Assembly: GCA_903844735.1 (NCBI GenBank)
Contig: CAIMUX010000142.1
Coordinates: 1-64,000, forward strand
DNA from: Candidatus Eiseniibacteriota bacterium
GTDB lineage: Bacteria > Eisenbacteria > RBG-16-71-46 > CAIMUX01
Length of the DNA stretch: 64,000 bases
Reading direction: 5' to 3'
Position 1 is the stretch's first letter. Each line of letters starts with the position of its first letter. Position numbers and translations under genes: made by a program. The notes beneath the pieces were generated by a model. It ran no database searches. It was not told where the DNA came from and worked only from the letters and a program-made list of their open reading frames with translations. This document shows, piece by piece, positions 4,094 to 24,259 of this stretch.

Positions 4094-4966
4094 TATCGAG
4101 CATGTTACAGTGGCATATGTCGATGGGATGCCGGCCCGCGTCGGCGGATGTCCGCGCCGGTCGACGATGCAACCTGCAAACTTGTTGGAAGGAAGTTCCT
4201 CAAGCCTTCGGGCCGCCATGCCGAACCCTTCCTCGTGCGGTGGGGCCGCAGCTTCGTTACTTCCGCCGAAGGATGGAACGGGGCCGCCGGGGTAGAAAAA
4301 ACTTGTCTGCCCGAAAAAAAGAGTTTGACAGGTGTGCGGAACCCGTGGGACCGTGCCACTCGTTCTAGCCCGCAGGGGTGGACGGAGTCGGTCGGCAGTG
4401 ATTCGTCGACCACGTTGGTCGGGGCACCGGGACACGGAAGTTCGGTGAGGACCGGGTCCACGCCTGAAAGGGGAGAGGCTTTGACAAGGGAGTCTTGAGC
4501 AGAGTTTCGGGAAGAGCTTCGGGAAGAGCTTCGGGAAGCGTTTCGGGAAGAGTTTTGGGAAGAGTTTTGGGAAGTGTCTTGGAGACTCGGGTCGATGTGC
4601 AAGACCCGCTGGGGCCGGACCCGCAGACACGGGGTCCAGACATAATCAAACCTACCTTGTGGTGCTGCTCAACCAGGACTGGTTAGCGCATTTGTTTTTT
4701 GGGGTTTTCATTGAGGGTGTTGGCTCGATTCCGCTCAGATGCCACGGTCGTTTCCTGCCAAGCGCAGCCGGAAGGGCTTCGCCGGGTGGGGTTTTGTGGT
4801 TTCTGATCTGGATCGTTCGTTGGTGGGGAAGAGTCCGAGGAATGATCCGAGGACAAGGAGGCGGTTGCTGATGACCGGACGAATGACCCGACAGTCGAAG
4901 GCGAGTTCCCAGGGATTGTGGGGGCTCATTCGTGGCTCGCAGCCTGAATCGAAGGAGGAAAAGGGG
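4094..4966. other. Long leader region before the giant gene
   Basis: About 870 bases without a supported gene. It contains A-rich stretches around 4293-4322, TTGACA hexamers at 4325 and 4481 without convincing -10 partners, and the 12-bp tandem repeat at 4501-4584. Its 3' part (4739-4966) is an open frame continuous with the giant gene, but it has no ribosome-binding site and would put 76 residues before an otherwise typical signal peptide. I treat it as untranslated leader. Confidence 0.5.
4501..4584. repeat. 12-bp tandem repeat, seven units
   Basis: Seven adjoining 12-bp units related to AGAGTTTCGGGA run from 4501 to 4584. Units 2 and 3 are identical, units 5 and 6 are identical, and the last is degenerate. 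The tract lies about 380 bases upstream of the giant gene's start. Its minus-strand reading (Ser/Arg-rich) shows no gene-like features. Confidence 0.85.
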
Positions 4967-7900
4967 ATGATGAGAAGGACAGGAACGGCCCTCGCCGTCA
5001 TGTCGGTCCTGGCAATGGTAGTCGGGATCACGCTGGGTGCGACGGGCGTACTGGCAGACAAGAACGTCAGCCCGTCGACCGGCAACCTGATCATTAACTA
5101 CCCGGCCTACCCGGTTACGGGCGGTCCGTACCTTGTTGGGGCGACGTATGACCCCAACAACGACCGGGTGGTTCTCGTGTTCAACGAACCCGTCGCCGCG
5201 GCGTCGACGTCGGCAACGTTGAGCGACGATTTCTTCTCGTCGACCTTCGATCTGGCTGATGCCGCTCTTGGCCTCGGTGACGACGACAGCGACAACGTCC
5301 TTTACATCACGGGCGTTGATCCGGCTGACGTGAGTCAGTTGTTCACCGACAACGGGGCCGAGCGCATCCGCCTGAAGCTCCCTGGGGTTCTCGCGGGGAC
5401 CGATGCGAGTCTCAGCGACGACGTGGGCTGGGTGCTGGTCGGGCAGGGCCCGATCCCCATTCGCGTTGAGTTGGTGAACCCAAATGTGGCCGCGGACAGC
5501 CTCCAGACCGTCCGGGTCTACTGGGATGCCGCCGCCGGGAAGGTCGGCCTTGCCGCCGCCGCCTTTGGCACCACCACCGAGATGTCCGGCGTGACCTTCG
5601 GCTTTACCGGGACCGGGAGCGACACCTGGACTCTGCGGGACAGCTCGACGGTCAGCCCCCCGAACTTCCGCTACATGATGGCCGGCATCACCAATCTGCG
5701 TGTCACAGCGGGCCAGGTCCGGTACGTCGGAACGGCCACGCCGGTGACCAATGTCGACCGCATCATGGGGTTCGACAACACCGACCGGGGACCGGTGCTG
5801 ATCGCCTCGTACTACGACACGAAGGCGACGGCTGGCTACGACGACGACGTTATCTGGGCGGTCTTCAACGAGCCGGTGAGCGGTTCGAACTTCCTCGGCT
5901 TGGCTGATGGCAATTTCAGCCGAGTCAATGGTGGCGCCGGCTTCGATGGAGTCGGCGGCGGCTCGACCCTCGCATTCCCAGGGACGACCACCGCATCCAT
6001 CAAGATCACCGGCTTCACAGGTACCACGAACCTGCCGGATGCCGATGACCTGCTTCGGCACGAAGGAACCCTGTCGGACTTCCAGAGCCAAGTCTATGCC
6101 GTCGACAACGACGCTCTGCTCCGGAACGGCCCCGGCATCATCCGGGCTTCCTACGACGACGGGCAGACGACGACGCTCAACAACGACAAGCTCGTCATCT
6201 GGCTGAGCGAGCCGATCAGCAACTCGGCGCAGATCGACACTGTTGACTTCACCGGAGACGGTGATTGGTATTTCGGGGACGCGGTCCAGGTGCTGGTCGA
6301 AGCCAACGTCGGCGGCCAGGGGAAGGTCACCTTCTCCAACTTCACCGAGGCGCCCGCGGCCAAGCGCTACCGCCCCGGTCTGCGGGTCCGCGCCACCAGC
6401 ACGGCCACCCCGGTCCTAGGCAACGGCGGTCGTACGGTTGACATCGTCACCGCGCTGCCGATCGTCGACGAGGCCCGTCCGTCCGTGGTTGACCTGCGGG
6501 AGGTCGCGTTGACCGATCGCTGGGACGAGGCCAACACGCTGGACACCCTCGACGTCGTTTGGCGCGAGCACGGCTCGTCCGACGATGGCGACCAGTATTT
6601 CCTCTTCCTCACGAAGAAGAGCCCGCTCGATATCACCAACGAGTGGATGGATGCCAACCTTTCGCGGGCCATTCCGCTCGGCAACCTCCGCCCTGGCGTC
6701 GGCGGCGACACCGTTCGAGTGCGCTTGATCGTCGACTATCCCGGAACCGGAGGCCTGGAGACCGTCAAGCGGACCACGGACGACGAGGACATAGAGCTTA
6801 ACGACCAGTTGCGGATTCTTGTGGCTTCGGCTGACTACACCGGAAACGTCCAGTACCGTAGCCAGTTGCAGGGGTCGGAAGCCCTCCTGTTCGGCGCTGC
6901 CATGTGGGTCGGACCGATCTGTCCGCCGCAGGACTCGTACTTGACCGCGGGGGACGAAACTCGCTGGGACAGCGACATCATTCACGTGGTTGGCGACAGC
7001 ACCGGCACCGGCCTAACCGCCGACTACACGTTCTCCGTCTTCGGCGACACGTTGGCGATCCCCTGCTCGGCTGACTCGGTCATCGCCTACTTCGATCCGG
7101 ATGATGTGATCGTGCTCGGAGTCGACGTGGACAACCTGGACGGCGACGAGATTCGCATTGGCGCCGGCCCGGTGAAGAACCGGCTCGCTTCCGATTCGAG
7201 TTTTGACCCGTTCGTGTTGACCTTCCCGGTCACCTGGGACCGCACCGAGGGGTTCATCTATCTGGCGGCCAAGATGGGGACGGACGTGACGCCCCCCGCC
7301 AACATGCGCCAGATCGCCCTCGACGCGTTCTATCCGGCGATCGCGGACAATCAAATCTTCGATCCCTGGAATCCCTACCGGATCTACAACTCGCTCGACT
7401 ATGTCAACATCCGGTTGCTGTTGAATGACCGGATTCGGGGCACGGGAGCCGCCGGAATCAACGACATCGCGCGCGTCGTGGCCGACTTCAGCGGCATTGA
7501 CTCGCTGACGACCAACCCAACCAACTTCTCGACCCCGCCAGTCAGCATCTTCTCGACCCCGCCAGACAGCATCGTATTGGTCGGCCTCGGTCGGGACCGG
7601 CTCGACAACGACGGCGACTGGTGGAGCCAGATGCTCACCGGTGATGACGACGACCCGGTCGACCTTGGTATCGACGGCGTGGCCAATACCGGCGACTTTG
7701 GCGAGGACAACGACAGGCCCGACGCGGGGGACCCGTTCGTCGACGAGAACGGCAACGGAGCCTATGACGCGGGCGAAACGTTTGTCGACCTGGTTAACCA
7801 GGTAGGCCAGACGGGTGTGTACGATCCGGGTGAGCCGTTCCTGGACAGCCGGGACGCGGATGAAGCCGGCTGGTACGAGGTCCGGAACACGGTGTTGGCC

Positions 7901-10900: not shown

Positions 10901-13900
10901 ATCGGCGACGCCTCCCTGATTCCAGCCGCCGCGGCCCTGACTGCCTTCCCGGCTGACGTGTTCTACGCCCAGACGGACGGCGAGGCTGCGGGTCTTGATC
11001 CGACCGACTGGATCTTCCGTGAGAACAACCTGAACGGGGACAACAACAACCTCGACCTCTGGACCGCCACCTGGGACGCGACCGGCCTGCCGGTAGGCAA
11101 GTACCTCGTCCGGGCCATCGCCGTCGATGGCCAGAACAACATGGACGAGATCAGTTACACCTGCTACGAACCGGCCGTGCAGAACCCGGAGGAGCTGGAG
11201 CTCGTGAACCTGAGTCCGGTACCGCCGCACGCCGTGTTCACGACGATGATCGTACCGGACGTGCTTCCGGGCGGCACCTCGGTGACCCTCCACCCTTCGC
11301 CGGCGAGCGTCATCTACGTTCCGGGCAGCGCGAAGTGGGCGGAGCTGAACTGCGCGGTTACCGGCGCCACCAAAGTGAAGTTCGAGTACAAGATCGAGGG
11401 CATCACCGATTGGACGGTGATCCAGCCGAACGACGACGACCTCTTCTTCGCGGACATCGACGGGACGGCCGGCTACAGCGGCGTCCTCGGGTTCGACGAG
11501 GTCTTCAATGATCTGAACGGCGACTTCGTCAAGAGCCCCGGCGACTTCGTCCAGGACGAGGGCGTCCCGGTCGGTGTCCAGACGCCGAGTGGGTGGGCCA
11601 TGTATCCGCAGATCAGCGGAGACGCGACGTTCGCCGTTCGCTACCCGTTCCACGTCTACCTGAACACGAAGGCTCTCTTGCCGACGGCGTTCCCGGCATT
11701 GATGACCGACACCAACATTCAACTCCGTGTGACTGCTTATGACGAGGTCTGCGAGAGTGATCGAAGCGACCCGAGTCCTGACGTCGTGACGGTCATCTGG
11801 GGCGAGAACGACGATCCGGTCGCCGACATCATCCGCGCAGAGGACCTCGATGGCACGCTGGTGGATGTCAGTCCGGAGATCCATGACCATACGCCCGTCG
11901 CCACGATCGGCGCTGACATGGACACCATGCGTGTGTTCGTCACAGCCGAGGACATGTCCACGATCGACTACGTGGACTTGTACTACCGGCTTGATCCGGC
12001 CTGTTACACGACGGTTTCTGATGATCAGTTGCAGCGTCCGACCGATCTGGTACTGGTGCTCGACGGTTCTGCGAGCATCACGGCGGCGTCCTTCGCTCTC
12101 CAGACGCAGGGAGTGGCCGCGGCCCTGGCGGATGAGGGGATTCTTCCGAGAGACGGGTCGGTCACCCTTGCCGTGGTGCAATTCGGCAACGGCGCGGCCG
12201 TGACCGAGATTCCGCGGACGACGATCACGAGCGCCTCCGTAGCCGGGGACCTGGCGACCCAGGTTCTGGCTATGGCGCAACGCGGCGACGGAACGCCGAC
12301 GGCCGCTGGGATCGACAGGGCCGTGGAGGCCATCGGTGCGGGCACCGTCGGTGCACGTCAGGTCATCATCCTTGCTACCGACGGACCGCCCACGGTGCCG
12401 GAGGGCGACCTTTCCGACCCGGTAGCCTTGGCGCTGGCTGCGGCCGACAACGCGATGCTTCACGGTGTCGACGAGCTTCACACGCTCGGCATTGGCGCCG
12501 CGGCGGACATGGTCTTCCTGGCGCAACTGGCGCGGAACGGTAGCGTCGAGCAGATCTCGAGCTATACGGGCTTCGCGGCCGCGATCGGCGGGAAGATCCA
12601 GGCCATCGTGTTCAACACTCTCGTGGATATGCGTCAGTGGAGGAGCATGACCGCGGCTGGCCTGATCGGCCACCCGGGGATCGACACGACGTATCCCTAC
12701 GACTTCAACATCGCGACCGATCTGATTGCGGACGGCGTCTATCAGATGTACCCGCGGGCTTATGACAAGAGCGGCAATTTCAACGCCGCTCCGCTCAACC
12801 CCTGGGGCTTCAAGAAGTTCGCGCTGGCGGATGTCGATTTCGCCTTCGTGAGCACGCCTGCCGGTCCGCCGGCCCTGCCCGACAGTGCCAGCGCGGCCAG
12901 TGGCGTGCTGGGCGATGCCGGATTCCAGGCCGGTGATGAGTATGTCATCCACGCTTCGTTGAGTGACCCGCTCCAGGCTCCGACAACCGCGGTGCGGTTC
13001 TACTTTGCCCCGCGTGTCCTGGACGAGGTCATCGACCCGGCGAGGGTGCAGCCGCTGTCTCCGTTCATCATGCTGGATGACGTGGCGGAGACGATTCTTG
13101 GGACGGCGACCGGCGACGGCGTGGTCGTCAAGATCAACGGCTCGCTCGGGACGTACCACGAGAGCCTGACAGGCCTGACATCTCCGATGGACTACACCGT
13201 CACCGGGAACAAGATCGAGTTCGCGGGCCGGCCGCTCGCGGGCGATTTGATCGAGGTGAGCTACAACTTCGGGGTGTGGGTGCCGATCGCGCTCGGCGAC
13301 ACATGGAGCCCGTACACAGTAGCCTGGAGTCAGGCCAACGGAGGCGTGCCCGATCCGGCACACATCGTCGATCCGAGCACCAGCCCGGCGACCAACCGCG
13401 ACTGGACCGGTGCGGACGCTTACGACCTCGCGGCCGGAGCGCTCTTCGACCTCAACGGGGATGGCACCTACGGTACGGCTTGCGACTACGCCGAGCCGAT
13501 CGCCAGCGAGGGAAACTACCTCTATCTGCGCGACGAGGCGAGGCCGGAGGTCATCCTTTACGGGCTGGCGTACGACGATTTCGTAGCGCCGTTCGACTAC
13601 CTGGACTGGAACTGGCCGGGTAACCCGCTGTTCCGCGGCGGGGACGAGCTTAACGGACCGAACTACGAGAACAAGCTGAGCGGTATTGAAACGGATATCT
13701 TTGTCGACGCGACTGATGTCGGCGGCGGCGAGGTGGCCTCGGTGAAGTTGGACGTCACCGCGAGCGAGATCGCGGGCGGTGGCATCCGGAAGACTTCGAT
13801 CGACATGACCAGGATCGCCAAGGACACGGAGTTCATCGACATTCCGATCACCTTCTACGAGGACGACTACTACGGCTTCTGGGTGACCGGCTACGGGCCG

Positions 13901-16900
13901 TTCCACCTTATCGAGGAAGTGAATGAGAAGATCGCAGCGCAGCCGGCTTGGGAGTCGGCTCCGATTGAGAACGTCGTTCTGCAGATTTCGATCGACCAAG
14001 GGGCTACCTGGACCCGTCAGTACGAGATGGTGCGCGACGAAGCGACCCGCTCCTGGAGCGCCGTCGGCCGCTTCAACACGGGCATCGTCGACGACGTAAC
14101 CCAGCGGTACCAGTTCATCGTAGACCTGGTGGGCGACGAGCAGTCGGTCATTCCTGATGCCCGGAACCTGGGTCGAACGGCGAGTCAGAGCAAGGATGCG
14201 GTTGTCACGTTCTACAGCGCGCTGAATGTACCCAGCACGGGCACTCACGCTTTCTGGTACACGCATTTGGACAACGCCACGCAACTGGGGAACAACGCGT
14301 TCCACCGCGTCGTGGTCACGGCGACGGACACCTTCGGCAACACCGGTACGAACCTGACCAGCGCCATGCCGGGCGCTGCCGGGGCGCAGGGGCCGATCGT
14401 GTTCGTGCTCGATCAGACGCCGCCGGTGGTCAACTCGATCATCGCGCTGAACTCGGATAGCCAGCCTCTGCCGGTCACCCGGGTGAGCCCCTCGCTCGAG
14501 TACAGGTTGATGGCCGACGTCAGCGACAGCCCATTCGGCGACATCAACGTGATGTCGACGCTGGGGGTCATCTACCAGTACTGCCCGAACAACTGGCTGA
14601 ACAACCCGAGTCCGACCTGGATCACCATTGATCTCGGCTGGGCGACGAACGGGATGTGGGTCAGAGACTGGACCCCGGTGAGTCCGCTCACCGATGGCTA
14701 CGACAACGACGGGGACGGTGTGTGGGACGAGCCGGACGAGGCTGTGGCCGACATTACCATCCGCGCCATTGCCTTTGACGACGGATTCAATACAGGCTAC
14801 AGCGATCGCCAGGCGACTCCGGTGACTCTGACGCTGACCGTCGACGCTGCTGAGCCGACCGCGGCCCTGACGCAGCCGGTGGACGGCGAGATCTTCGGCT
14901 ACAGCGAGCCGATTCTGCTCAGCGGTACCGCTGATGGCGACTACACGCCGCCCAAGGCGACGAACGACGTCGACATCGTGCGATTCCAGGCCAAGATCAA
15001 TCGGCTCTTCTACGTCGATGAGACCCTGTTCATCCAGAATGGTGCCGACAAGACGCCTCCCGTCGCGACGATCGTAGGCAAGGCGAATGTCTATGAGAAC
15101 GGCCTCGACGAGGTCTGGTGGGACTCGGAAGGCGACGATGACTTCTCGGCGGCGGACTCGTGCGTCTACTCAGGCGCGAACGGGATTCCTTTCCAGTTCG
15201 AGCCGTCGAAGGTCCAGGCCCTGCCGGATCCGAACTTCTGGTTCGACCTCGATCCCACGCCGCAGGATAACGGCGACGATCCGTGGTTGACCTCGGCCAA
15301 CAACGGCGACAACTGGGAGATGACCTGGGTGCCGTCCGGATACAGCTTCATCAACGTCGATCTTCTCGGCGGCGACGAGTATGTCCGGCTGCGCATGCTT
15401 TCTCGCGACACTGCCGGTAACTGGGACACGGAGGACGACCTGCTTGGGCCGAAGGAGACGGTCGTCATTCTCAACGACGACACGGTCAGCCGGGCCTACG
15501 TGACGCATGTCGGCACCAATGACCAGGACGGCGCGGTCGACCCCGCGGAGACCAAGCCGGTTCAAGGGCTGAACGGAGTGAACGTTTACGGGCAGATGTT
15601 CGCCTCCGGCCTGGAGGAAATCGTCCAGGTCAACGTGTACATGGTGGCGACGCCGGACGGCGCGGCACCTGATACGTCGCTGGTGTTCATTGACAACACT
15701 ATCGCCGAGGACGGTCTGTTCACGGGCATCTGGGACGCCGGCGCGCTGCCGGAGGCGGAGTATCTGCTCTTCGCCACCGCCGTGGACGTGGACCAGAACG
15801 AGACAAGTATGCACGACGCCACCAAGGTGCGTGTCCGGGTTGACCGGACGCCGCCGGTGGTCAACTACACGGCGCTCGGCACATACGCTGGGTTTACTAC
15901 GGGCGCGAGCTATACGGACGACAGCATCGTCAACCACAGCAGCACGGTCATCTTCCCGGACATGTACACCGGGGACGTGAACTTCACTGTGACGACGACG
16001 GCATCGGACGTGGCTTCCATGCTTCTGCAGTGGCGGTTCGCAACCGACCCTGTCGGTTTCTGGCGGCCGGTCGGTGACTTCTTCACGCCGACGGTTCGTC
16101 CGGACGGCGCGTTCGACTACGAGCCGAACCAGGACTTCTCCGTCGGCGGCGTCGCGCACCACGCTTGGTGGCTGCATCTGGAGAACTTCAACGACCCGGC
16201 CCGGGTGTTGCAGTCCGGTCGGATGGAGTTCCGGGCGCTGGCCGTCGACGAGGCGGGCAACAGCAATGCGCTTCAGACAGAGGTGGCTCCGTACACCGCT
16301 GACGACACCGAACCGACCGGCTTCGACTGGAACGACGATTCCGTCACCAATCAGATCGAAGTCGGAACCACGGTGAACTTCGAGATCTCCGTGCAGGATC
16401 AGTTGATGACTGACGAGACTCGCACCGACATCACGCAGGTGGCCCTGGTGTTCCGCCGGGTCGGCGTGGCGGCGTGGTCGCCGTACGCCGCGGTGGTGCC
16501 GGAGCCGAAGCAGATAGACACCGGCAATGCGATGTGGATCGCCCGGTTCGCCTGGACGGCGCCGACCTTCGTGGTTCACGACACGGGTTACGAGTTTGCG
16601 GTTGTGATGACCGACGCGGCAGGCAACGTGAACGAGACGCCGTGGCAGCGGCCCGGCGGCTATGTCATCACTGTTGAGGACAACGCGGCGCCGGATCGGA
16701 CGAAGATGGTCGATGTGGTCGCGCTCACCTACAAAGCGGCCGAGGTTAACGGCAACCCCGACAACCCGGACGTTTGGAAGGACAACTCGACCATCGAAGC
16801 GGACATGACGACCTATCAGGTCGGCACCGACTGGCTCGTTAGCGAGGGCGGTGGCCCTGTCCTGGTAACGCCTTTCACGCCGAGCTTCAATCCGCCCGCG

Positions 16901-19900
16901 AACGGAACGGTGGGTACCGCCGTTGGCGACGCTTGCGCCACCTTCCCGCGAAATGTCGGGGAAGGGTACTTGAACGACGCTCGCGTTCGTAACACGGTCA
17001 AGGTTGCTCGGACGGTGACGCTCGTGGGTCGGACGCAGTCCGACGACGACGGCATCGGGCAGCTCGACACGGGCATTCAGTGGGTTACCTTCCTGTTGGC
17101 GCCGTGCGACGCGAACGGCGTTCTTTCGGCGCAGTCCGAGTGGATCACGCTCGGCCGCGACGAGTATCAGCCGGCGTTCCCGCTCTTCTATTGGCACCTG
17201 ACCCTGGACACCGAGCTCTACGCCGACGGTAACTACAGACTCGCCGCATATGCCCTGGACGAGGAGGGCAACCTTGAGGACATGACGAGCCTCGATTGGA
17301 CCTCCGCGATCATCGTGATCGATAACACGGGACCGAGCGCTCAGATGGACGCCGACGCTACCACCGACGCCGTGGAGAAGACGGCCACGGTGGAGCGGAA
17401 CAGGCCGTTCACGCTGTTCGCGCGTACCCTCGAGCCGGGCACGGCGACACTGCAGAACTACGAGGACGACACGGTTGAGTTCTTCTACAAGCGCGCGCGG
17501 GACCTGAACATGGCGGACTCCTGGGCCTCGGTGGACGAGGACGCAGGTGCGGCCGAGCCCGCGGAGAGCGAGGACGGAAACCCGGACTTGACCCGGCCCT
17601 ACTCGTTCGACGTCAACATGGGCCTCCTCTCCGAGCCGACGGACAACCACACGGGCGTCCCGCTTTCGGTCGGTGAGACCTATGACTTCGCGACCTATGT
17701 AAGCGACGAGGTCTGCAACGCCACGACGCAGATCGGGACCTTCGCGGATAGCGCGGTGGCCGGCGTCGGTACGCGGTACCTCCGCGTCCTGATCCAGGAC
17801 ACGATCGCGCCCCACCTGGAGTTCACGAGTGCGGTGCGGAAGGCCGCCCCGTATGGCGATGAGGCCTTGATCGAGAACCCGACGAAGATCCACGCGCAGG
17901 GCTTCCATCAGATCACGGCGGAGCTCCTGGCGGGTGATCTGGATATGGATCACGCCGAGTTCGTGTACCGCCCGATGGGCACGACGACCTGGAACCTCAT
18001 CGACGCCGATCTGACGTCCGAAGAGGGCGGTCGGAAGTGGGTGCTCGGTGAGTGGGATCTGCAGACACTGCAGCACAATACTTGGTACGAAGTTGCGTGC
18101 ATCGGCGTGGACGACGTCGGCAACGTCGACCAGGCACCCGACCTCATCGAGGTCTACGTCGACTACGAGGCTCCGCCCTTCGTGCTTGTGAGCCCGGCCC
18201 CGACGACTTCCAAGTGGTGCAACGGCATCATGGATCTGGTTGTGGAAGTTACGCGCGGCACGCCTCAGGCCGACCCGGAGCCTAATGATGACGTCTTCGA
18301 CGTGATTTGGCTCTGGAAGTTGAGCGCGGATCCGGACGTCATGGCGCCCGACACTACGTCGAATCCCGCGGCGACGGGTTGGAAGACGCTGTCTGTCGCC
18401 ACGGTGGCGGATCTCTACGACGACGCGACGAACAGGTACAGCAACACGCTGAATCTGAGCGGCACGATCAACCCGAACGGACCGCTCGGTCTGATGAGCA
18501 TCTTCGCGTCGAACCTCTACGATATGCGAGTGATGGTCGTAGACCAGGCCGGTAACGTAGGCGTCTACGATGTCTACAAGAACACCGTCGATTTGACCGC
18601 GCCGAACTACTCGCAGATCTCGAACATCAAGCTGTACGGGAACGACACGACCCAGGATCCGTCGGATCAGGGTCAGTACACCAATGTCACGGCAGGCAGC
18701 ATGGTTGAGATCTTCGGCACCGCTTCGGACAACGAACCGGCCCTGCCGGATTACGCTGACCCGCAGACCGGTACGTTCTACGAAACGGCCATCGCGGCGA
18801 TGCAGTTCGAGGTGGCTTATGACCTCGGTGTGAGTGATGGCAATGCGGACGGCGGTGTCTGGTATGACATCGGCGTCGTGAAGCTGGACCCGCCGAACCT
18901 GGGTGACTTGAGCGCCCAGACTTCGTCGATCCTGTGGAACACAACCGGGCTGCCGGAGGGTCAGTACCTGCTCCGGGTCACCGCGTTCGATGAGTGCGGC
19001 CTTGGCACGACAAGTGCCACGGTCAACGTGCGTGTCCTGGACTGGACGCCTCCTATCGCCAGGATCGTGGCTTGGGATGCCGATCAGCAGCCGCACGGGA
19101 CGCCGGCCCCCTCGTTCCTGACGATCTACGCGCTGGCTGAGTGCGACACAACGGACGCAGATACGGAGACAGCCGGTTGGCAGCCGACCTACGATGTTCA
19201 ACTCCAGTACAACGTGAAGGACGTCGGCGAGGCTGTACCGACCGGTGACTGGATCAATATCGGGATCGCGCAACCGGCAGAGGACGGTGAGCGGTTCACC
19301 ACGGGGCAGCTCTGGTCGGCCACAATCGACCCGCAGCTGTTCGGCGCGAGTGCGGGCTCTGTCTGGCTGCGCGCGCTGGTGAAGGACGACGCCGGCAACC
19401 GGTACGGCGACAACCCCGCGGACATAGTTCCGACGGCGCTGGTTAACATCGTGCAGCAGGTCGACGACCTGGGCGTTGCCGACGGCACGATCACGATCGA
19501 ACAGGTCGCCGCTGCGGAGCTGCAGGGCGGCTCGCGCATGGTTGAAGACGTTAGCTGGATGATCGAGAGCCCGACGCACGTCGTGCTGACGGTCAAGATG
19601 GCCGTCCAGGATCAGGCGCCGCGCGTGATCCTGCTGAGCGAGCCGGCTGATCCGATCGCCTACCCGTCGGACGACAATCCGCTGAACTACACGCCGGGGG
19701 TGCCGGTGGGTCTGACGCGGAGCATCGACGACCCGACGGTCTGGCGCGGCGAGGTCTTCCTTGAGGATCCGGACAACTGCACGCATTACGCGTTCTGGGT
19801 GTCCGGCCTTGACGGCACGGCCGGCACGGCCAAGTGGATCGACCTGATGGACGCCTACATGCGGGAGTTCAGTGTGACGACGGCCCTTGGGACCAACGGC

Positions 19901-22687
19901 ACGGTGAAGACTCCGGCATACGGCTCCTTGGGTGCCGATGTGAAGGTGGTCTCCGGCGCTTGGCCGGGTGACCCGACCTGCTTGCTCGTGAGCCCGACGG
20001 ATCCGCCGTTCATCTCGACGGACCAGTCGCGCTATTTGAACCCGATCGACCGGACGGCGTACCACCTCCAGGTTCTTAGCAGTGACGGTCCGTTCGTTCA
20101 TGGCTACGAGCCTCTGGTCACGATCAAGTACAGCCAGGACATGGCTGCGGCCGCCCTCACCGGGACCGAGTCCGGCGAAGGTGACCTGACGGTCCGTCGT
20201 TGGGATGCGTCGCTCGAGAATCGCGATGGCACCACCGGAGCATGGGTTGGCGCGGGTATTTCGCAGATCAAGACCTTCCCGGAGCAAGACAAGGTGGTCT
20301 TCCGCGTACGCGACCTTTCGAGCGACGTCGCTATGGGTGGCGGCAGCGGGACGGACATCGCCTTTGCTTTGGACGGTTCGAGCAGCGTCGGCCCGACGGA
20401 CTTCACGCTACAGCTCGAAGGAGTTGCGGCAGCGGTGCTAAACACGTCAATCATTCCGCATGATGGGTCGGTGGCCGTGGGCGTCGTGCAGTTCAGTGGC
20501 AGTGCCGTCACCGAGGTGCCTTTGACTCAGATCACGGATGCTGCTGTTGCTGCCACCCTCGCGGCGCAAATTCGGGCTATCGTGGGCATCAACGACGGCA
20601 CGGATATCGCCGCGGGTCTCAACCAGGCCAGTGCCGTCTTGGGCGCTGGTACCCCTGGTTCCCGGCAGGTCATCGTTCTCGCTACTGACGGAGGTTCGGA
20701 TGCAACGGCTGCGAATGCCGCGGCTGACGCGGCTGTCGCAGGGGGCGTCGAGGAAATCGACGTGCTCGGCGTCGGCGCGGTTGATGATGTCGTGCTCGGT
20801 TCGCTGACCCGTAGCGGAAGCTACACGCAGGTCACGACGTTCAACGCCTTCGCGCAGGAAATCGCAGGGGTTGTCACCGCGGCAGTCAACGCCGGCCAGT
20901 CCGGCGGCGGCGCCATCTTCCAGCTCTTTGTCCCGAAGCGGAACGCTCCGGTTCTCGTCTCGAGCTTCTGGCCGAGCAGCCCGTACGTCACGGATTGGCA
21001 GACGGACGCTGACCCGGTCATCGTGGTCTACCTGCGCGACCCGGGTGGTCAGGTGATCGATCCGAGCGAGGCCGAGCTACTGATTGACGGCGAGTTCTGG
21101 GCCACGTGGCTTACCGGCGACGGCGACGCGCAATTCGTGCGGGGCAATGGAGAGGCTGTGTTGACCTACGCCAACCAGGACCAGACGGTGATGGAGCTGA
21201 AGTATCAGCACTCCACCTACCCGCGGGACTGGCTGACTGACGGTGCGCACCTGCTGACGGTGCGCTACAAGGCGGCCGACGGGACCGACGACTGGATGGA
21301 AGGGAACTTCACCTTCAACGTGGACCGCAAGGCCCCGTACATCGAGTTCGACGGTGGGTTCGTGAGCAACCCGCGCCTCAGCAACGTCATGGGTTACATG
21401 AACCCGAAGCAGGGCAAGCTGATCGCCAAGATGTACGACGGCGGGACCGGTATCCTGTTCAAGCACGATCGGCCCTGGTACTACTACGATGCCGATCAGG
21501 ATGGCATCCTGGATCCGATCGAGCGGCAGGCGGACCCGACGGATGATCCGGGTGGCGACTACGGATGCGGCGAGTGCCCGTTCTGGATCCGCGCGGACTG
21601 GGGCATCAAGTACGACGTCTGGCGGATCCATACGCCGGAGAACCAGCCGCCGCACGACGCCCAGCAGGACATTGACAACATCGAGGTTCGTACGTTGCTG
21701 CATCAGGGTACTGCGGATGAGCTGGAGCCCTGGCTCAGGGTGCACGGCCGTCCCATCACGCTGGACGAGTACACCCCCGGAACCGACACCTTGGAGGTGC
21801 CGGTGGCGGTGGTCGGCGGCGGAATGATCAAGGATCAGGACATCGTCGAGATTACCTGGTACTCGGACAAGTCGATCGAGCAGAACCAAGACTTCGGCGG
21901 CTGGGGCTGCGCGCTGGACACGATCGTGGTGAACGGGACGACCCGCGTGTTCTGGGATCCGACTTGTGCGTACGACGACGAGTCCCAGGAAATGCACATC
22001 TACAACGAGGGCATCCAGGACTGGGCGTCCAACAGCGGCAGCAAGTACGTCGAGCAGAGGTTCATCGTGGACATGAGCTGCCCGGTCATCAACATCGTCC
22101 AGCCGGCTACCTCCACGGTAGATCCGGCCGGGAACATGCAGATCGAGGTCTCGTTCGCTGACGCAGGCGTGGGTGTGAACCCGCTCACGGCGTCGGTGAC
22201 CGTCCTTGATCCGTCTGGAAACCTGGCGCAGATCGGCAGCCCGAGCTTCATCAACGATCGCTTCACCGGCGTCCTCGTGGGCCCGCTGCAAAACGGCGAG
22301 TACACGGTCAAAGCGACGGCGGCGGACTATCTGGGCGCTGCCTGCGAGAAGATCCAGATCGTGAAGGTCGAGGCGCTGGCGTTGGCGATGACGGAGGCGG
22401 TTGCCGCCCCGAACCCGTTCAACCCGGCCGAGGGCACGGCCAAGATTCACTTCAACCTGTCGAAGGCCGGTGACGTGACGGTCCGGATCTACGACTTCGC
22501 CGGTATCGAGGTGGCGACTCTAGCGAGCATGATGCACTTGCCCGCCGGAATGAACCACCTGGACTGGGCTGGCGAAGCTGCCGACCACACCGATCTAGCC
22601 AACGGCGCCTACATCTGCCGGATCACCGCCACCGACGGTGCGAAGACCGAGGAACAGAACCTCAAGGTCGTGATCTGGCGCGAGTAA
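4967..22687 (+). CDS. Giant exported Ig-like array protein with two vWA domains and a T9SS-like C-terminal sorting module
   Basis: One intact frame of about 5,906 residues. ATG 4967 follows an AAGGAGGAAAAGGGG site and begins a signal peptide (MMRRTGTALAVMSVLAMVV, cleavage near residue 31). Three related segments around residues 60-75, 290-305 and 405-420 carry NEPV/SEPI motifs, as in bacterial Ig-like Big_5 modules. Ig-like module borders of the type VDxTxP recur near residues 1447, 1587, 3149, 3625, 4119, 4399, 4542, 4691, 5452 and 5702. Acidic DxDGDG-type calcium loops are scattered throughout. Two vWA domains (about 2357-2552 and 5127-5315) keep the MIDAS residues DGSxS, Thr and TDG. The C-terminus has APNPFNP followed by a FlgD/Por-type fold ending NGAYICRITA...LKVVIWRE, the pattern of T9SS type A sorting domains. 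It is probably a cell-surface adhesin or S-layer-like fibre. The adjoining PorV-type barrel supports outer-membrane handling; substrate and partner are unknown. Confidence 0.9.
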   Translation: MMRRTGTALAVMSVLAMVVGITLGATGVLADKNVSPSTGNLIINYPAYPVTGGPYLVGATYDPNNDRVVLVFNEPVAAASTSATLSDDFFSSTFDLADAALGLGDDDSDNVLYITGVDPADVSQLFTDNGAERIRLKLPGVLAGTDASLSDDVGWVLVGQGPIPIRVELVNPNVAADSLQTVRVYWDAAAGKVGLAAAAFGTTTEMSGVTFGFTGTGSDTWTLRDSSTVSPPNFRYMMAGITNLRVTAGQVRYVGTATPVTNVDRIMGFDNTDRGPVLIASYYDTKATAGYDDDVIWAVFNEPVSGSNFLGLADGNFSRVNGGAGFDGVGGGSTLAFPGTTTASIKITGFTGTTNLPDADDLLRHEGTLSDFQSQVYAVDNDALLRNGPGIIRASYDDGQTTTLNNDKLVIWLSEPISNSAQIDTVDFTGDGDWYFGDAVQVLVEANVGGQGKVTFSNFTEAPAAKRYRPGLRVRATSTATPVLGNGGRTVDIVTALPIVDEARPSVVDLREVALTDRWDEANTLDTLDVVWREHGSSDDGDQYFLFLTKKSPLDITNEWMDANLSRAIPLGNLRPGVGGDTVRVRLIVDYPGTGGLETVKRTTDDEDIELNDQLRILVASADYTGNVQYRSQLQGSEALLFGAAMWVGPICPPQDSYLTAGDETRWDSDIIHVVGDSTGTGLTADYTFSVFGDTLAIPCSADSVIAYFDPDDVIVLGVDVDNLDGDEIRIGAGPVKNRLASDSSFDPFVLTFPVTWDRTEGFIYLAAKMGTDVTPPANMRQIALDAFYPAIADNQIFDPWNPYRIYNSLDYVNIRLLLNDRIRGTGAAGINDIARVVADFSGIDSLTTNPTNFSTPPVSIFSTPPDSIVLVGLGRDRLDNDGDWWSQMLTGDDDDPVDLGIDGVANTGDFGEDNDRPDAGDPFVDENGNGAYDAGETFVDLVNQVGQTGVYDPGEPFLDSRDADEAGWYEVRNTVLADRGKVTQGYPLNPTRVRKLAYTDPLSLVTITILDNAADGAAGTIYPEQTQRPDRTRSLSLDQTTILDGTDPEQRFLATIDFHEPTVSEITEIENGNGSPNMVVPGSPAPVYPLGQYLDITVSTPSDSDVLFTQLQLLSGTPATWKALARDAEGDANGDTYPGDANFSEDFALAGETTNADLDTIGIVAVDDDQNGVIDEAGEGIDLKDREVHNAGETTAMDTANTHGDAVSSQNDGRDNDNDAYFKYSAFAPGDPANPTAGYGIVTWWNVDESITNTFDDDGDGVVDEADELPEGGDAANANRYLAANDDDEDGIADGEAVAIAFNGSTTILGSNPAFVGTIYVAASKVMGTRTSANTVAADSLARFYANGAAYTEPIAAGYATMTSSVRRLLASGYDTDVPEATRTDWSALTSFNWNTRKGADIDLNWASRVYGLLADGATTYQLRGVAYDRTGNSNVNWAEPISFTIDLTGPTANIDGCGVDPLNVGSDFADKISTTADLIEIWDAGQHPGTYTLTLQSVDPDAQEVQFQERRQNADGTWPAAWTNIGTADLNAPFTKEWPEAGVMFTVNNYPAARYQDVQFRAIATDAQNNQTPEADICVFDVRVIDSTPPSSWIRGIYRDDSASFYEDDDYTPLAVTVSVPQDSSINIWARIEDNDRDAMGRLTTLLPGKSTYNVVNAPHVHAPDPYTTMWAAGVDGKTGNALANDDGNGGLSVIDEDDPGGFGGLSDGIYTLGADSLDNYLAGDDTTATVGAGLDSIPGTDDDEWGLGTNNDDYITNDVKYVVWQYRRVNPATEWLTFATVHGDDAAGVGGQTFDYTQPMKATLNTAGFVEGIYELRAYACDVEGNCNIDTAPIATIAVRANPLRAYIQPEVCSSVNSSMFDLYAVHFIHDYEIDKVRFEYTAATTAGCAVVPTVWNLISIDEAALQGDSRGDPVLYMPKQFVDTPDPIQTLGTGVNLAGTVYKYWDADGDGYYSSRDPVVSSADLIWGAADVAVIGDASLIPAAAALTAFPADVFYAQTDGEAAGLDPTDWIFRENNLNGDNNNLDLWTATWDATGLPVGKYLVRAIAVDGQNNMDEISYTCYEPAVQNPEELELVNLSPVPPHAVFTTMIVPDVLPGGTSVTLHPSPASVIYVPGSAKWAELNCAVTGATKVKFEYKIEGITDWTVIQPNDDDLFFADIDGTAGYSGVLGFDEVFNDLNGDFVKSPGDFVQDEGVPVGVQTPSGWAMYPQISGDATFAVRYPFHVYLNTKALLPTAFPALMTDTNIQLRVTAYDEVCESDRSDPSPDVVTVIWGENDDPVADIIRAEDLDGTLVDVSPEIHDHTPVATIGADMDTMRVFVTAEDMSTIDYVDLYYRLDPACYTTVSDDQLQRPTDLVLVLDGSASITAASFALQTQGVAAALADEGILPRDGSVTLAVVQFGNGAAVTEIPRTTITSASVAGDLATQVLAMAQRGDGTPTAAGIDRAVEAIGAGTVGARQVIILATDGPPTVPEGDLSDPVALALAAADNAMLHGVDELHTLGIGAAADMVFLAQLARNGSVEQISSYTGFAAAIGGKIQAIVFNTLVDMRQWRSMTAAGLIGHPGIDTTYPYDFNIATDLIADGVYQMYPRAYDKSGNFNAAPLNPWGFKKFALADVDFAFVSTPAGPPALPDSASAASGVLGDAGFQAGDEYVIHASLSDPLQAPTTAVRFYFAPRVLDEVIDPARVQPLSPFIMLDDVAETILGTATGDGVVVKINGSLGTYHESLTGLTSPMDYTVTGNKIEFAGRPLAGDLIEVSYNFGVWVPIALGDTWSPYTVAWSQANGGVPDPAHIVDPSTSPATNRDWTGADAYDLAAGALFDLNGDGTYGTACDYAEPIASEGNYLYLRDEARPEVILYGLAYDDFVAPFDYLDWNWPGNPLFRGGDELNGPNYENKLSGIETDIFVDATDVGGGEVASVKLDVTASEIAGGGIRKTSIDMTRIAKDTEFIDIPITFYEDDYYGFWVTGYGPFHLIEEVNEKIAAQPAWESAPIENVVLQISIDQGATWTRQYEMVRDEATRSWSAVGRFNTGIVDDVTQRYQFIVDLVGDEQSVIPDARNLGRTASQSKDAVVTFYSALNVPSTGTHAFWYTHLDNATQLGNNAFHRVVVTATDTFGNTGTNLTSAMPGAAGAQGPIVFVLDQTPPVVNSIIALNSDSQPLPVTRVSPSLEYRLMADVSDSPFGDINVMSTLGVIYQYCPNNWLNNPSPTWITIDLGWATNGMWVRDWTPVSPLTDGYDNDGDGVWDEPDEAVADITIRAIAFDDGFNTGYSDRQATPVTLTLTVDAAEPTAALTQPVDGEIFGYSEPILLSGTADGDYTPPKATNDVDIVRFQAKINRLFYVDETLFIQNGADKTPPVATIVGKANVYENGLDEVWWDSEGDDDFSAADSCVYSGANGIPFQFEPSKVQALPDPNFWFDLDPTPQDNGDDPWLTSANNGDNWEMTWVPSGYSFINVDLLGGDEYVRLRMLSRDTAGNWDTEDDLLGPKETVVILNDDTVSRAYVTHVGTNDQDGAVDPAETKPVQGLNGVNVYGQMFASGLEEIVQVNVYMVATPDGAAPDTSLVFIDNTIAEDGLFTGIWDAGALPEAEYLLFATAVDVDQNETSMHDATKVRVRVDRTPPVVNYTALGTYAGFTTGASYTDDSIVNHSSTVIFPDMYTGDVNFTVTTTASDVASMLLQWRFATDPVGFWRPVGDFFTPTVRPDGAFDYEPNQDFSVGGVAHHAWWLHLENFNDPARVLQSGRMEFRALAVDEAGNSNALQTEVAPYTADDTEPTGFDWNDDSVTNQIEVGTTVNFEISVQDQLMTDETRTDITQVALVFRRVGVAAWSPYAAVVPEPKQIDTGNAMWIARFAWTAPTFVVHDTGYEFAVVMTDAAGNVNETPWQRPGGYVITVEDNAAPDRTKMVDVVALTYKAAEVNGNPDNPDVWKDNSTIEADMTTYQVGTDWLVSEGGGPVLVTPFTPSFNPPANGTVGTAVGDACATFPRNVGEGYLNDARVRNTVKVARTVTLVGRTQSDDDGIGQLDTGIQWVTFLLAPCDANGVLSAQSEWITLGRDEYQPAFPLFYWHLTLDTELYADGNYRLAAYALDEEGNLEDMTSLDWTSAIIVIDNTGPSAQMDADATTDAVEKTATVERNRPFTLFARTLEPGTATLQNYEDDTVEFFYKRARDLNMADSWASVDEDAGAAEPAESEDGNPDLTRPYSFDVNMGLLSEPTDNHTGVPLSVGETYDFATYVSDEVCNATTQIGTFADSAVAGVGTRYLRVLIQDTIAPHLEFTSAVRKAAPYGDEALIENPTKIHAQGFHQITAELLAGDLDMDHAEFVYRPMGTTTWNLIDADLTSEEGGRKWVLGEWDLQTLQHNTWYEVACIGVDDVGNVDQAPDLIEVYVDYEAPPFVLVSPAPTTSKWCNGIMDLVVEVTRGTPQADPEPNDDVFDVIWLWKLSADPDVMAPDTTSNPAATGWKTLSVATVADLYDDATNRYSNTLNLSGTINPNGPLGLMSIFASNLYDMRVMVVDQAGNVGVYDVYKNTVDLTAPNYSQISNIKLYGNDTTQDPSDQGQYTNVTAGSMVEIFGTASDNEPALPDYADPQTGTFYETAIAAMQFEVAYDLGVSDGNADGGVWYDIGVVKLDPPNLGDLSAQTSSILWNTTGLPEGQYLLRVTAFDECGLGTTSATVNVRVLDWTPPIARIVAWDADQQPHGTPAPSFLTIYALAECDTTDADTETAGWQPTYDVQLQYNVKDVGEAVPTGDWINIGIAQPAEDGERFTTGQLWSATIDPQLFGASAGSVWLRALVKDDAGNRYGDNPADIVPTALVNIVQQVDDLGVADGTITIEQVAAAELQGGSRMVEDVSWMIESPTHVVLTVKMAVQDQAPRVILLSEPADPIAYPSDDNPLNYTPGVPVGLTRSIDDPTVWRGEVFLEDPDNCTHYAFWVSGLDGTAGTAKWIDLMDAYMREFSVTTALGTNGTVKTPAYGSLGADVKVVSGAWPGDPTCLLVSPTDPPFISTDQSRYLNPIDRTAYHLQVLSSDGPFVHGYEPLVTIKYSQDMAAAALTGTESGEGDLTVRRWDASLENRDGTTGAWVGAGISQIKTFPEQDKVVFRVRDLSSDVAMGGGSGTDIAFALDGSSSVGPTDFTLQLEGVAAAVLNTSIIPHDGSVAVGVVQFSGSAVTEVPLTQITDAAVAATLAAQIRAIVGINDGTDIAAGLNQASAVLGAGTPGSRQVIVLATDGGSDATAANAAADAAVAGGVEEIDVLGVGAVDDVVLGSLTRSGSYTQVTTFNAFAQEIAGVVTAAVNAGQSGGGAIFQLFVPKRNAPVLVSSFWPSSPYVTDWQTDADPVIVVYLRDPGGQVIDPSEAELLIDGEFWATWLTGDGDAQFVRGNGEAVLTYANQDQTVMELKYQHSTYPRDWLTDGAHLLTVRYKAADGTDDWMEGNFTFNVDRKAPYIEFDGGFVSNPRLSNVMGYMNPKQGKLIAKMYDGGTGILFKHDRPWYYYDADQDGILDPIERQADPTDDPGGDYGCGECPFWIRADWGIKYDVWRIHTPENQPPHDAQQDIDNIEVRTLLHQGTADELEPWLRVHGRPITLDEYTPGTDTLEVPVAVVGGGMIKDQDIVEITWYSDKSIEQNQDFGGWGCALDTIVVNGTTRVFWDPTCAYDDESQEMHIYNEGIQDWASNSGSKYVEQRFIVDMSCPVINIVQPATSTVDPAGNMQIEVSFADAGVGVNPLTASVTVLDPSGNLAQIGSPSFINDRFTGVLVGPLQNGEYTVKATAADYLGAACEKIQIVKVEALALAMTEAVAAPNPFNPAEGTAKIHFNLSKAGDVTVRIYDFAGIEVATLASMMHLPAGMNHLDWAGEAADHTDLANGAYICRITATDGAKTEEQNLKVVIWRE

Positions 22688-22728: not shown

Positions 22729-22789
22729 GCCTGGACGAACGATCTGCAAAGTGCTTCGGTCAGAACTGGTTGAACAAGGAGGTAGGGAA

Positions 22790-24259
22790 ATGTTGAAAAG
22801 GAATAGGGGCCTTCTCGTGATGGCCCTGATCCTCGGAGTGGGGGTGCTGCTCGGCGCGGTCGCGGATGCGCAGGCTGCCAGCAGCTCCAGCAATCGAAAC
22901 GCACCGTATCTACGCATGGGGACGGGCGCGCGGGCCTTGGGCATGGGGGGCGCCTTCACCGGCGTCGCTGACGATGCTACCGCTGCGTATTGGAATCCGG
23001 CCGGTCTGGCTTGGACCAGCGGCTGGGAGGTCACCGGGCAGTACGCGGCGGGCATGGACGGCGACCGGACATTCAACTCTGTCGGATTTTCCCGCAACGG
23101 CAGCATGATGGCCTATGCGTTGCAGTGGGTCAACGCGGGGACCAGTGACATCCCGCAAACGGACGTAGACGGGCGGTCTTTGGGTTCTTTCAACTTCAAC
23201 GACAATGCCTTCAGCCTGTCGCTTGCGAAGGGGTTTGACGTGGCGTCGGTGGGGATCACCGGCAAGTTCTTGCGCCAGTCTCTCGGTGCGGAGATCGCTA
23301 CCGATGACGCGGTCAACGGCTTCGGCCTGGATCTCGGCTTCGGCTTGATCGTCACCGACTACGCGCGGTTCGGGCTCTCGGTGGCGAACATCGCAGGCAA
23401 GCTCGGTTCCGTGGATGAGGTCAACACGATCCCCGCTACGTTGCGTGCCGGCGTCGCGCTCATGCCGATGGAAGGCCTGACCGTGGCGTTCGACATGGAG
23501 AAGACGCGGGACGAGGAAGACTATGGGTTCCACGCCGGCGGTGAGTACGCGCTTGCCGTCAGTGACGACTTCGGGACGGCTCTCCGTATTGGTCTCAACC
23601 GGAGTAAGTTTGCCGGCGGCATCGGTTTGCGCTACAACTTTTTGACTTTCGACTACGCCTATGTGGTGGAGCCAGAGAAGTTCTTGGGGGAGAACCACCG
23701 CTTTAGCGTCAGTTTGAACTTCGGCCGGGACCAGGTTGCTCGGAAAGTCACCGATCGCGATGGCGACGGCATCCCCGACGATGTCGACCAGTGCCCGGAC
23801 CTCGCGGAGGACTTCAACGGATACCAGGACTCTGACGGTTGCCCCGAGGGCGGTCCGCCGAAGGTCGAGACGCCTGCGCTTCAACCTCCGGTGGTGATTC
23901 CCCCGCCGCCACCGCCGACGATTCCGGCATTCGCCTACATCAACTTCAAGTTCGGCACTGCCGAGATCAGCGGTGCGGATCCGATCCCGGTTCTCGAGGA
24001 CGTTGCCCGGATCATGAAGGAGCGTCCCGACATGAAGGTCAAGATCACCGGCCACACGGACAACGTGGGGGCCGACGCGGCGAACATGACGCTGTCCACG
24101 CGGCGTGCCGACGCGATCAAGACCTACCTGACCGGGCGCGGCGTTGGAGCGGAACGGCTGGTCACCGACGGCAAGGGTGAGAGCTCGCCGGTCGACACGA
24201 ATGACACCGATCTGGGTCGTGCGCGCAACCGGAGGATCGAGTTCGCGGTTATCCAGTAG
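22790..24259 (+). CDS. PorV/UPF0164-type outer-membrane barrel fused to an OmpA peptidoglycan-binding domain
   Basis: About 489 residues. ATG 22790 follows AAGGAGGT. A signal peptide (residues 1-29) precedes a UPF0164/PorV-type barrel of about 310 residues, opening with the signature LGMGGAFTGVADDATAAYWN and alternating strands. Next come a calcium-binding thrombospondin-type-3 loop (DRDGDGIPDDVDQCPD, near residues 325-340), a Pro-rich linker, and an OmpA C-terminal domain (residues 385-489). The latter carries the ITGHTDNVG and RAxAIKxYL motifs and an RNRRIEF end, which bind diaminopimelate in peptidoglycan. In T9SS organisms PorV shuttles cargo to the attachment complex. Fusion to OmpA and placement 103 bases after a sorting-tail protein suggest a peptidoglycan-anchored partner for that protein; this role is inferred. 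Confidence 0.88.
   Translation: MLKRNRGLLVMALILGVGVLLGAVADAQAASSSSNRNAPYLRMGTGARALGMGGAFTGVADDATAAYWNPAGLAWTSGWEVTGQYAAGMDGDRTFNSVGFSRNGSMMAYALQWVNAGTSDIPQTDVDGRSLGSFNFNDNAFSLSLAKGFDVASVGITGKFLRQSLGAEIATDDAVNGFGLDLGFGLIVTDYARFGLSVANIAGKLGSVDEVNTIPATLRAGVALMPMEGLTVAFDMEKTRDEEDYGFHAGGEYALAVSDDFGTALRIGLNRSKFAGGIGLRYNFLTFDYAYVVEPEKFLGENHRFSVSLNFGRDQVARKVTDRDGDGIPDDVDQCPDLAEDFNGYQDSDGCPEGGPPKVETPALQPPVVIPPPPPPTIPAFAYINFKFGTAEISGADPIPVLEDVARIMKERPDMKVKITGHTDNVGADAANMTLSTRRADAIKTYLTGRGVGAERLVTDGKGESSPVDTNDTDLGRARNRRIEFAVIQ

Follow-up and report, generated by a model that had tools for sequence, protein, structure and literature searches.

A probable cell-surface adhesin of a Candidatus Eiseniibacteriota bacterium, encoded by a single giant gene, seems to have gained a von Willebrand A (vWA) domain of the DUF1194 type by in-frame insertion into one of its existing domains, after which a second vWA was placed in another loop of the same protein, either by copying or by a further import. 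We assign this account a probability of about 0.72. The gene lies in the window, by which we mean the whole 64,000-nucleotide stretch that was analysed, at the start of a contig of 95.5 kb. The features discussed below are collected in Table 1, in which residues are counted from the start of the open reading frame at position 4739. A signal-peptide-like start is found near nucleotide 4970, which is probably the true start; since the original prediction counted from this methionine, its residue numbers are 77 lower than ours.

Table 1. Features of the giant gene and of its downstream neighbor, in positions of the window.
Feature	Residues	Position	Strand	Remarks
Giant secreted repeat protein, open reading frame	5,982 codons	4739..22687	+	Signal peptide MMRRTGTALAVMSV...; syntenic orthologues
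Host domain 1, N-terminal half, Ig-like	2360-2425	11816..12013	+	Ends in C strand VDLYYRLDP
Insertion 1	2426-2627	12014..12619	+	Absent in all 7 orthologues aligning at the site
vWA-1, DUF1194-like	2434-2625	12038..12613	+	MIDAS complete (12062-12076, 12293, 12380)
Host domain 1, C-terminal half	2628-2694	12620..12820	+	From MRQWRSM
Host domain 2, N-terminal part	about 5079-5195	19973..20323	+	Ends VVFRVRDLS; conserved, without Pfam family
Insertion 2	5196-5390	20324..20908	+	Glycine-rich linkers GGGSG and GQSGGG; absent in all 9 orthologues aligning at the site
vWA-2, DUF1194-like	5204-5384	20348..20890	+	MIDAS complete (20372-20386, 20600, 20687)
Host domain 2, last strand		20909..20953	+	IFQLFVPKRNAP
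C-terminal FlgD_ig domain		22427..22639	+	Por_Secre_tail-like (under the cut-off of that family), candidate surface-sorting signal
Downstream gene, PorV/PorQ-family and OmpA domain		22751..24259	+	Stays beside the giant gene in orthologues

Two alignable vWA copies had been predicted in one reading frame, and both were confirmed. They are matched by Pfam VWA (PF00092; vWA-1 51.4 bits, E 1.9e-13; vWA-2 67.0 bits, E 3.2e-18; gathering cut-off 23.8) and also pass the cut-off of 27 for DUF1194 (PF06707), with 40.6 and 46.7 bits respectively. Although separated by about 2,770 residues, the copies are 51% identical across 179 residues and align with a score of 399, whereas 300 shuffles never exceeded 82. 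Every motif quoted in the original prediction is present. DNA identity is 58% and falls to 42% at third codon positions, therefore the relationship is an old one and the copies are not an assembly duplicate, while a dN of about 0.45 against a dS of 1.3-1.6 indicates purifying selection between them. All five residues of the MIDAS pattern (DxSxS...T...D) are kept in each copy, as had been claimed: DGSAS at 2442-2446, T2519 and D2548 in vWA-1 and DGSSS at 5212-5216, T5288 and D5317 in vWA-2. Both were modeled with confidence by AlphaFold as vWA folds (pLDDT mostly 85-95), and a Foldseek search with the vWA-2 model returned solved vWA structures including von Willebrand A3, integrin I domains and the pilus adhesin SpaC. 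In many adhesins, vWA domains with an intact MIDAS bind ligands through a metal, and from the intact residues here we infer that the two copies bind a ligand as well.

To find the state of the two sites in relatives, each vWA was removed in silico and the joined flanks were used as queries. Orthologous giant genes were found in the same family (G002), in the same order (G003-G008, with a fragment in G009) and in one class-level relative (G012); among 47 genomes of the phylum, a strong match to the C-terminal region of the giant protein occurs only in these. Orthology follows from collinearity with the window protein along most of their length (about 5,000 residues) together with synteny, as a PorV/OmpA-like gene lies downstream in every orthologue whose sequence reaches there and purA or ychF lies upstream in those genomes of the family and order whose sequence extends that way. 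The predicted interruption points, VDLYYRLDP...MRQWRSM and VFRVRDLS...IFQLFVPK, proved exact, the orthologues being uninterrupted at both. At site 1, 7/7 aligned orthologues have a short loop of variable length that links the strand VDLxYR to the following W; for example, residues 1619 and 1624 of G006 abut window residues 2422 and 2630. Site 2 is a loop between xVxFRVxxL and xIFxLFxP that lacks a vWA in 9/9, the same-family G002 included (residues 4570 and 4575 of G004 abut window residues 5193 and 5392). This second loop itself differs by about 30 residues among species, and in G003 and G006 (L039, L041) it carries about 20-30 extra residues, so that it is variable in length without any vWA. 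When the six full-length orthologues were aligned, the two vWAs were the only private insertions of at least 35 residues in the window protein, and 4 of the six had none at all. Because the domain split by each vWA is unbroken in every aligned orthologue, the alignments support the view that both are lineage-specific insertions into older domains, as originally proposed. Homologues without the cassettes exist in the same family, order and class, the window sites are empty wherever they align, and the opposite pattern, in which distant homologues would all carry both cassettes at the same sites, was looked for and did not occur.

The original prediction also placed both vWAs in the same Ig-like array, which is supported for copy 1 only. 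The host of vWA-1 belongs to an Ig-like repeat family with 18 matches in the giant protein and 166 over ten sequences when searched with a repeat profile, and the joined flanks of site 1 match this profile across states 1-132; against Pfam, Big_7/Big_13 were matched weakly (best E 0.0018). The host of vWA-2 is conserved among orthologues and matched no Pfam family, and profile comparison detected no relation to host 1, so that an Ig-like character is supported for host 1 alone. That the flanks of each vWA belong to one domain is indicated by orthologous continuity rather than by structural modeling. For both regions, the AlphaFold models bear on the vWA part alone, with pLDDT below about 50 for most flank residues because the alignments used for folding contained no flank homologues.

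On whether the two copies are sisters or independent arrivals, a question raised with the original prediction, two trees agree that they are sisters (support 99/98 and 98/89). They group with vWAs of Methanohalobium (annotated as a DUF1194 protein), Planctomycetota, Pseudomonadota and Actinomycetota, whereas the phylum's own vWAs, including the BatA/B-like ones of the same genome, occupy a separate part of the tree. With a subfamily profile, no further match was obtained across the phylum's 47 genomes at E 1e-12, and of 385 genomes sampled from across the domain, just one other was hit at E 1e-15. The nearest outside vWA is in G332, and two genomes searched from the phylum of G332 yielded no further member. 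Searches for a donor among genome contigs gave no match with a two-row vWA profile and only 4 loci with a four-row profile. In phage and plasmid searches only one DUF1194 protein was found, from Methanohalobium, and viral contigs held one weak relative of the window vWAs. Repeats flanking the inserts, as the mark of a mobile element, were looked for and none were found.

Two separate imports of related DUF1194-type vWAs, with no copying inside the gene, would be the strongest competing explanation, and we regard it as unlikely but worth keeping in view. The main argument for it over one import and a copy is the gap in GC3 between vWA-1 (0.81) and vWA-2 (0.70); the whole gene has 0.835 and vWA-2 lies beneath the gene's own 2.5% bound of 0.73. 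This gap is no harder to reconcile with two imports that differ in age than with a single duplication. The copies are also only 51% identical, donors exist given that the subfamily is present in distant phyla, and the giant protein can acquire vWAs more than once, as the G012 lineage described below illustrates. Against it, each copy has the other as its nearest relative whichever sample is used (49-51% identity, compared with no more than 40% to any other sequence), with bootstrap values of 98-99%, although the DUF1194-like sample is small, about 10 sequences, and closer relatives of one copy may therefore exist. Duplication within the gene is favored over two imports from related donors, though it is not proven.

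A second lineage bears on how often such events take place. Searching the relatives with Pfam VWA revealed two vWAs inside the orthologous 6,310-residue protein of the class-level relative G012, at sites that differ from those in the window: the first separates the strand RVLYRY from FWTEIG, and the second LQFQVL from WQDLG. All eight other orthologues that align across the second site have it empty; around the first the sequences diverge more, and the orthologous module can be recognized there by a weaker match. The G012 domains are very divergent, only 21-30% identical to the window copies, and therefore do not represent the same import. In the second G012 vWA (L038:4114-4701) DGSGS and the loop-3 Asp are present while the MIDAS Thr is seemingly absent (GRSGAEHG), unlike in the window copies. 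With two vWAs of its own at other sites, the G012 lineage suggests that the giant-protein scaffold takes up vWA modules, which are probable ligand-binding modules, repeatedly and independently. Window site 1 and both G012 sites map to states 59-66 of the 132-state Ig-repeat profile, hence three of the four vWA insertions appear to lie in the C-C' loop of the Ig-like repeat, that is, between the C strand and the next W-containing strand, named here by the usual Ig pattern and not from a structure. There is perhaps an even chance that this C-C' hairpin is a privileged acceptor loop, with at least three separate captures from unrelated vWA subfamilies within one phylum. If this is true, the loop provides a natural series of replicated, integrin-like domain insertions.

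The two vWAs of G012 are the one point in favor of a further alternative, in which the ancestor of the giant protein already had the vWAs and every other lineage lost them. Their different sites and low identity to the window copies speak against it, and it would require clean loss at site 2 in 9 lineages, the same-family G002 among them; we strongly disfavor this explanation. Still less credible is an assembly or binning artefact that spliced vWA fragments into the gene, since, even though the 5.4 Mb genome is a draft in 142 contigs with an estimated contamination of 4.99%, both inserts preserve the reading frame, stop at domain boundaries with linkers and retain their MIDAS residues, and they are old (dS above 1), under purifying selection and sisters.

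Returning to insertion followed by copying or a second import, the rest of the gene and its surroundings indicate where such a protein would act. At the C-terminus, FlgD_ig (PF13860) passes its cut-off with 38.9 bits against 27, while the sorting-domain profiles of the type IX secretion system (T9SS) fall short (TIGR04183, 22.4 bits with a cut-off of 23; PF18962, 19.5 bits with a cut-off of 27). In the downstream gene, a PorV/PorQ-family barrel (116.6 bits, cut-off 90) is combined with an OmpA domain and a TSP3-like linker; the product is possibly the exporter or anchor of the giant protein. Together, a C-terminus close to the T9SS-tail cut-off and this PorV/PorQ-OmpA neighbor make a location at the cell surface likely. 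Six DxDxDG-type loops (e.g., DDDGDGVVD, DNDGDGVWD), at residues 1002, 1244, 1333, 1363, 3322 and 5584, look like calcium-binding loops. Elsewhere in the genome, the minus strand of contig C95 (L046:1081-2856) encodes a predicted lipoprotein with the lipobox LAGC. After a pair of Cys-rich CCxxxGxCxxxT repeats, it has domains that share 62% identity with the giant-protein region just downstream of site 2, a second case of domain shuffling from the giant gene. As a donor of the vWAs this fragment was ruled out, as it has the domains from downstream of site 2 without a vWA.

Based on these features, the giant gene would encode a rod-like adhesin, probably on the cell surface, built of Ig-like repeats. 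A DUF1194-type vWA foreign to the phylum may have entered, in frame, a surface loop of a domain that was already there; then either it was copied into the second loop, whose length varies among orthologues, or an imported close relative was placed there. The intragenic copying is what we infer from the kinship of the two domains. The vWA domain is compact and its two termini are close together, thus its addition to a hairpin loop leaves folding of the host possible. Natural inserts are typically compact domains with close termini (PMC13114784). Each copy would probably project sideways from the rod and bind a ligand via a metal at the MIDAS, giving one molecule two lateral binding heads on a giant stalk. 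The G012 lineage may have done likewise independently, with other vWA domains and in other modules.

Usually, a single domain insertion is inferred per family, long after it took place; the integrin I domain is an example. Here, occupied and empty sites stand side by side in syntenic orthologues, with four insertions at four sites in two lineages, so it becomes testable which loops accept domains, what role linkers and the distance between termini play, and whether the head brings a new binding activity. To our knowledge, based on a limited literature search, there is no other orthologous bacterial gene with several lineage-specific vWA insertions at different sites and with the empty sites preserved.

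Nesting of a vWA in an Ig-like or other host domain is already known from Mfa5, RrgA and integrins, and it is the repeated capture in one orthologous gene that is the notable part. The DUF1194 (PF06707) secreted vWA proteins nearly always have a MIDAS, and their T11SS-linked members are separate secreted proteins or lipoproteins (PMC12282271); the window vWAs fall in the same subfamily by Pfam and by tree but are nested within a domain of another protein instead of standing alone. In Mfa5 of Porphyromonas gingivalis, a MIDAS-bearing vWA with bound metal separates strands B and C of a CnaA-like domain (PMC7835359). This case resembles ours in that the vWA is nested in a beta-sandwich of the IgG type on a Gram-negative surface protein, as vWA-1 probably is, but Mfa5 is a fimbrial tip protein with a single vWA, whereas the window protein is a repeat protein of 6,000 residues with two, the first of them apparently in the C-C' loop rather than between B and C. 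In RrgA, domain D3 is inserted into D2, and D2/D3 into D1 (PMC5333627). Such nested insertion in pilus tip adhesins of the RrgA/GBS104 type likewise places a vWA head on a stalk of beta domains; these adhesins are Gram-positive and sortase-anchored, with one vWA per protein in a fixed architecture, while in our case related species have lineage-specific insertions at sites that differ from one another. The integrin alpha I domain is a vWA that was put into an older beta-propeller in one lineage, and relatives without it keep the empty site (PMC12422189). Both cases share a lineage-limited insertion with empty sites kept in relatives, which in the integrin adds a ligand site. They differ in that the integrin insertion was one event in animals, with a collagen-like donor and a beta-propeller host, whereas the window protein offers a bacterial Ig-like repeat as host, and further insertions were made in a class-level relative.
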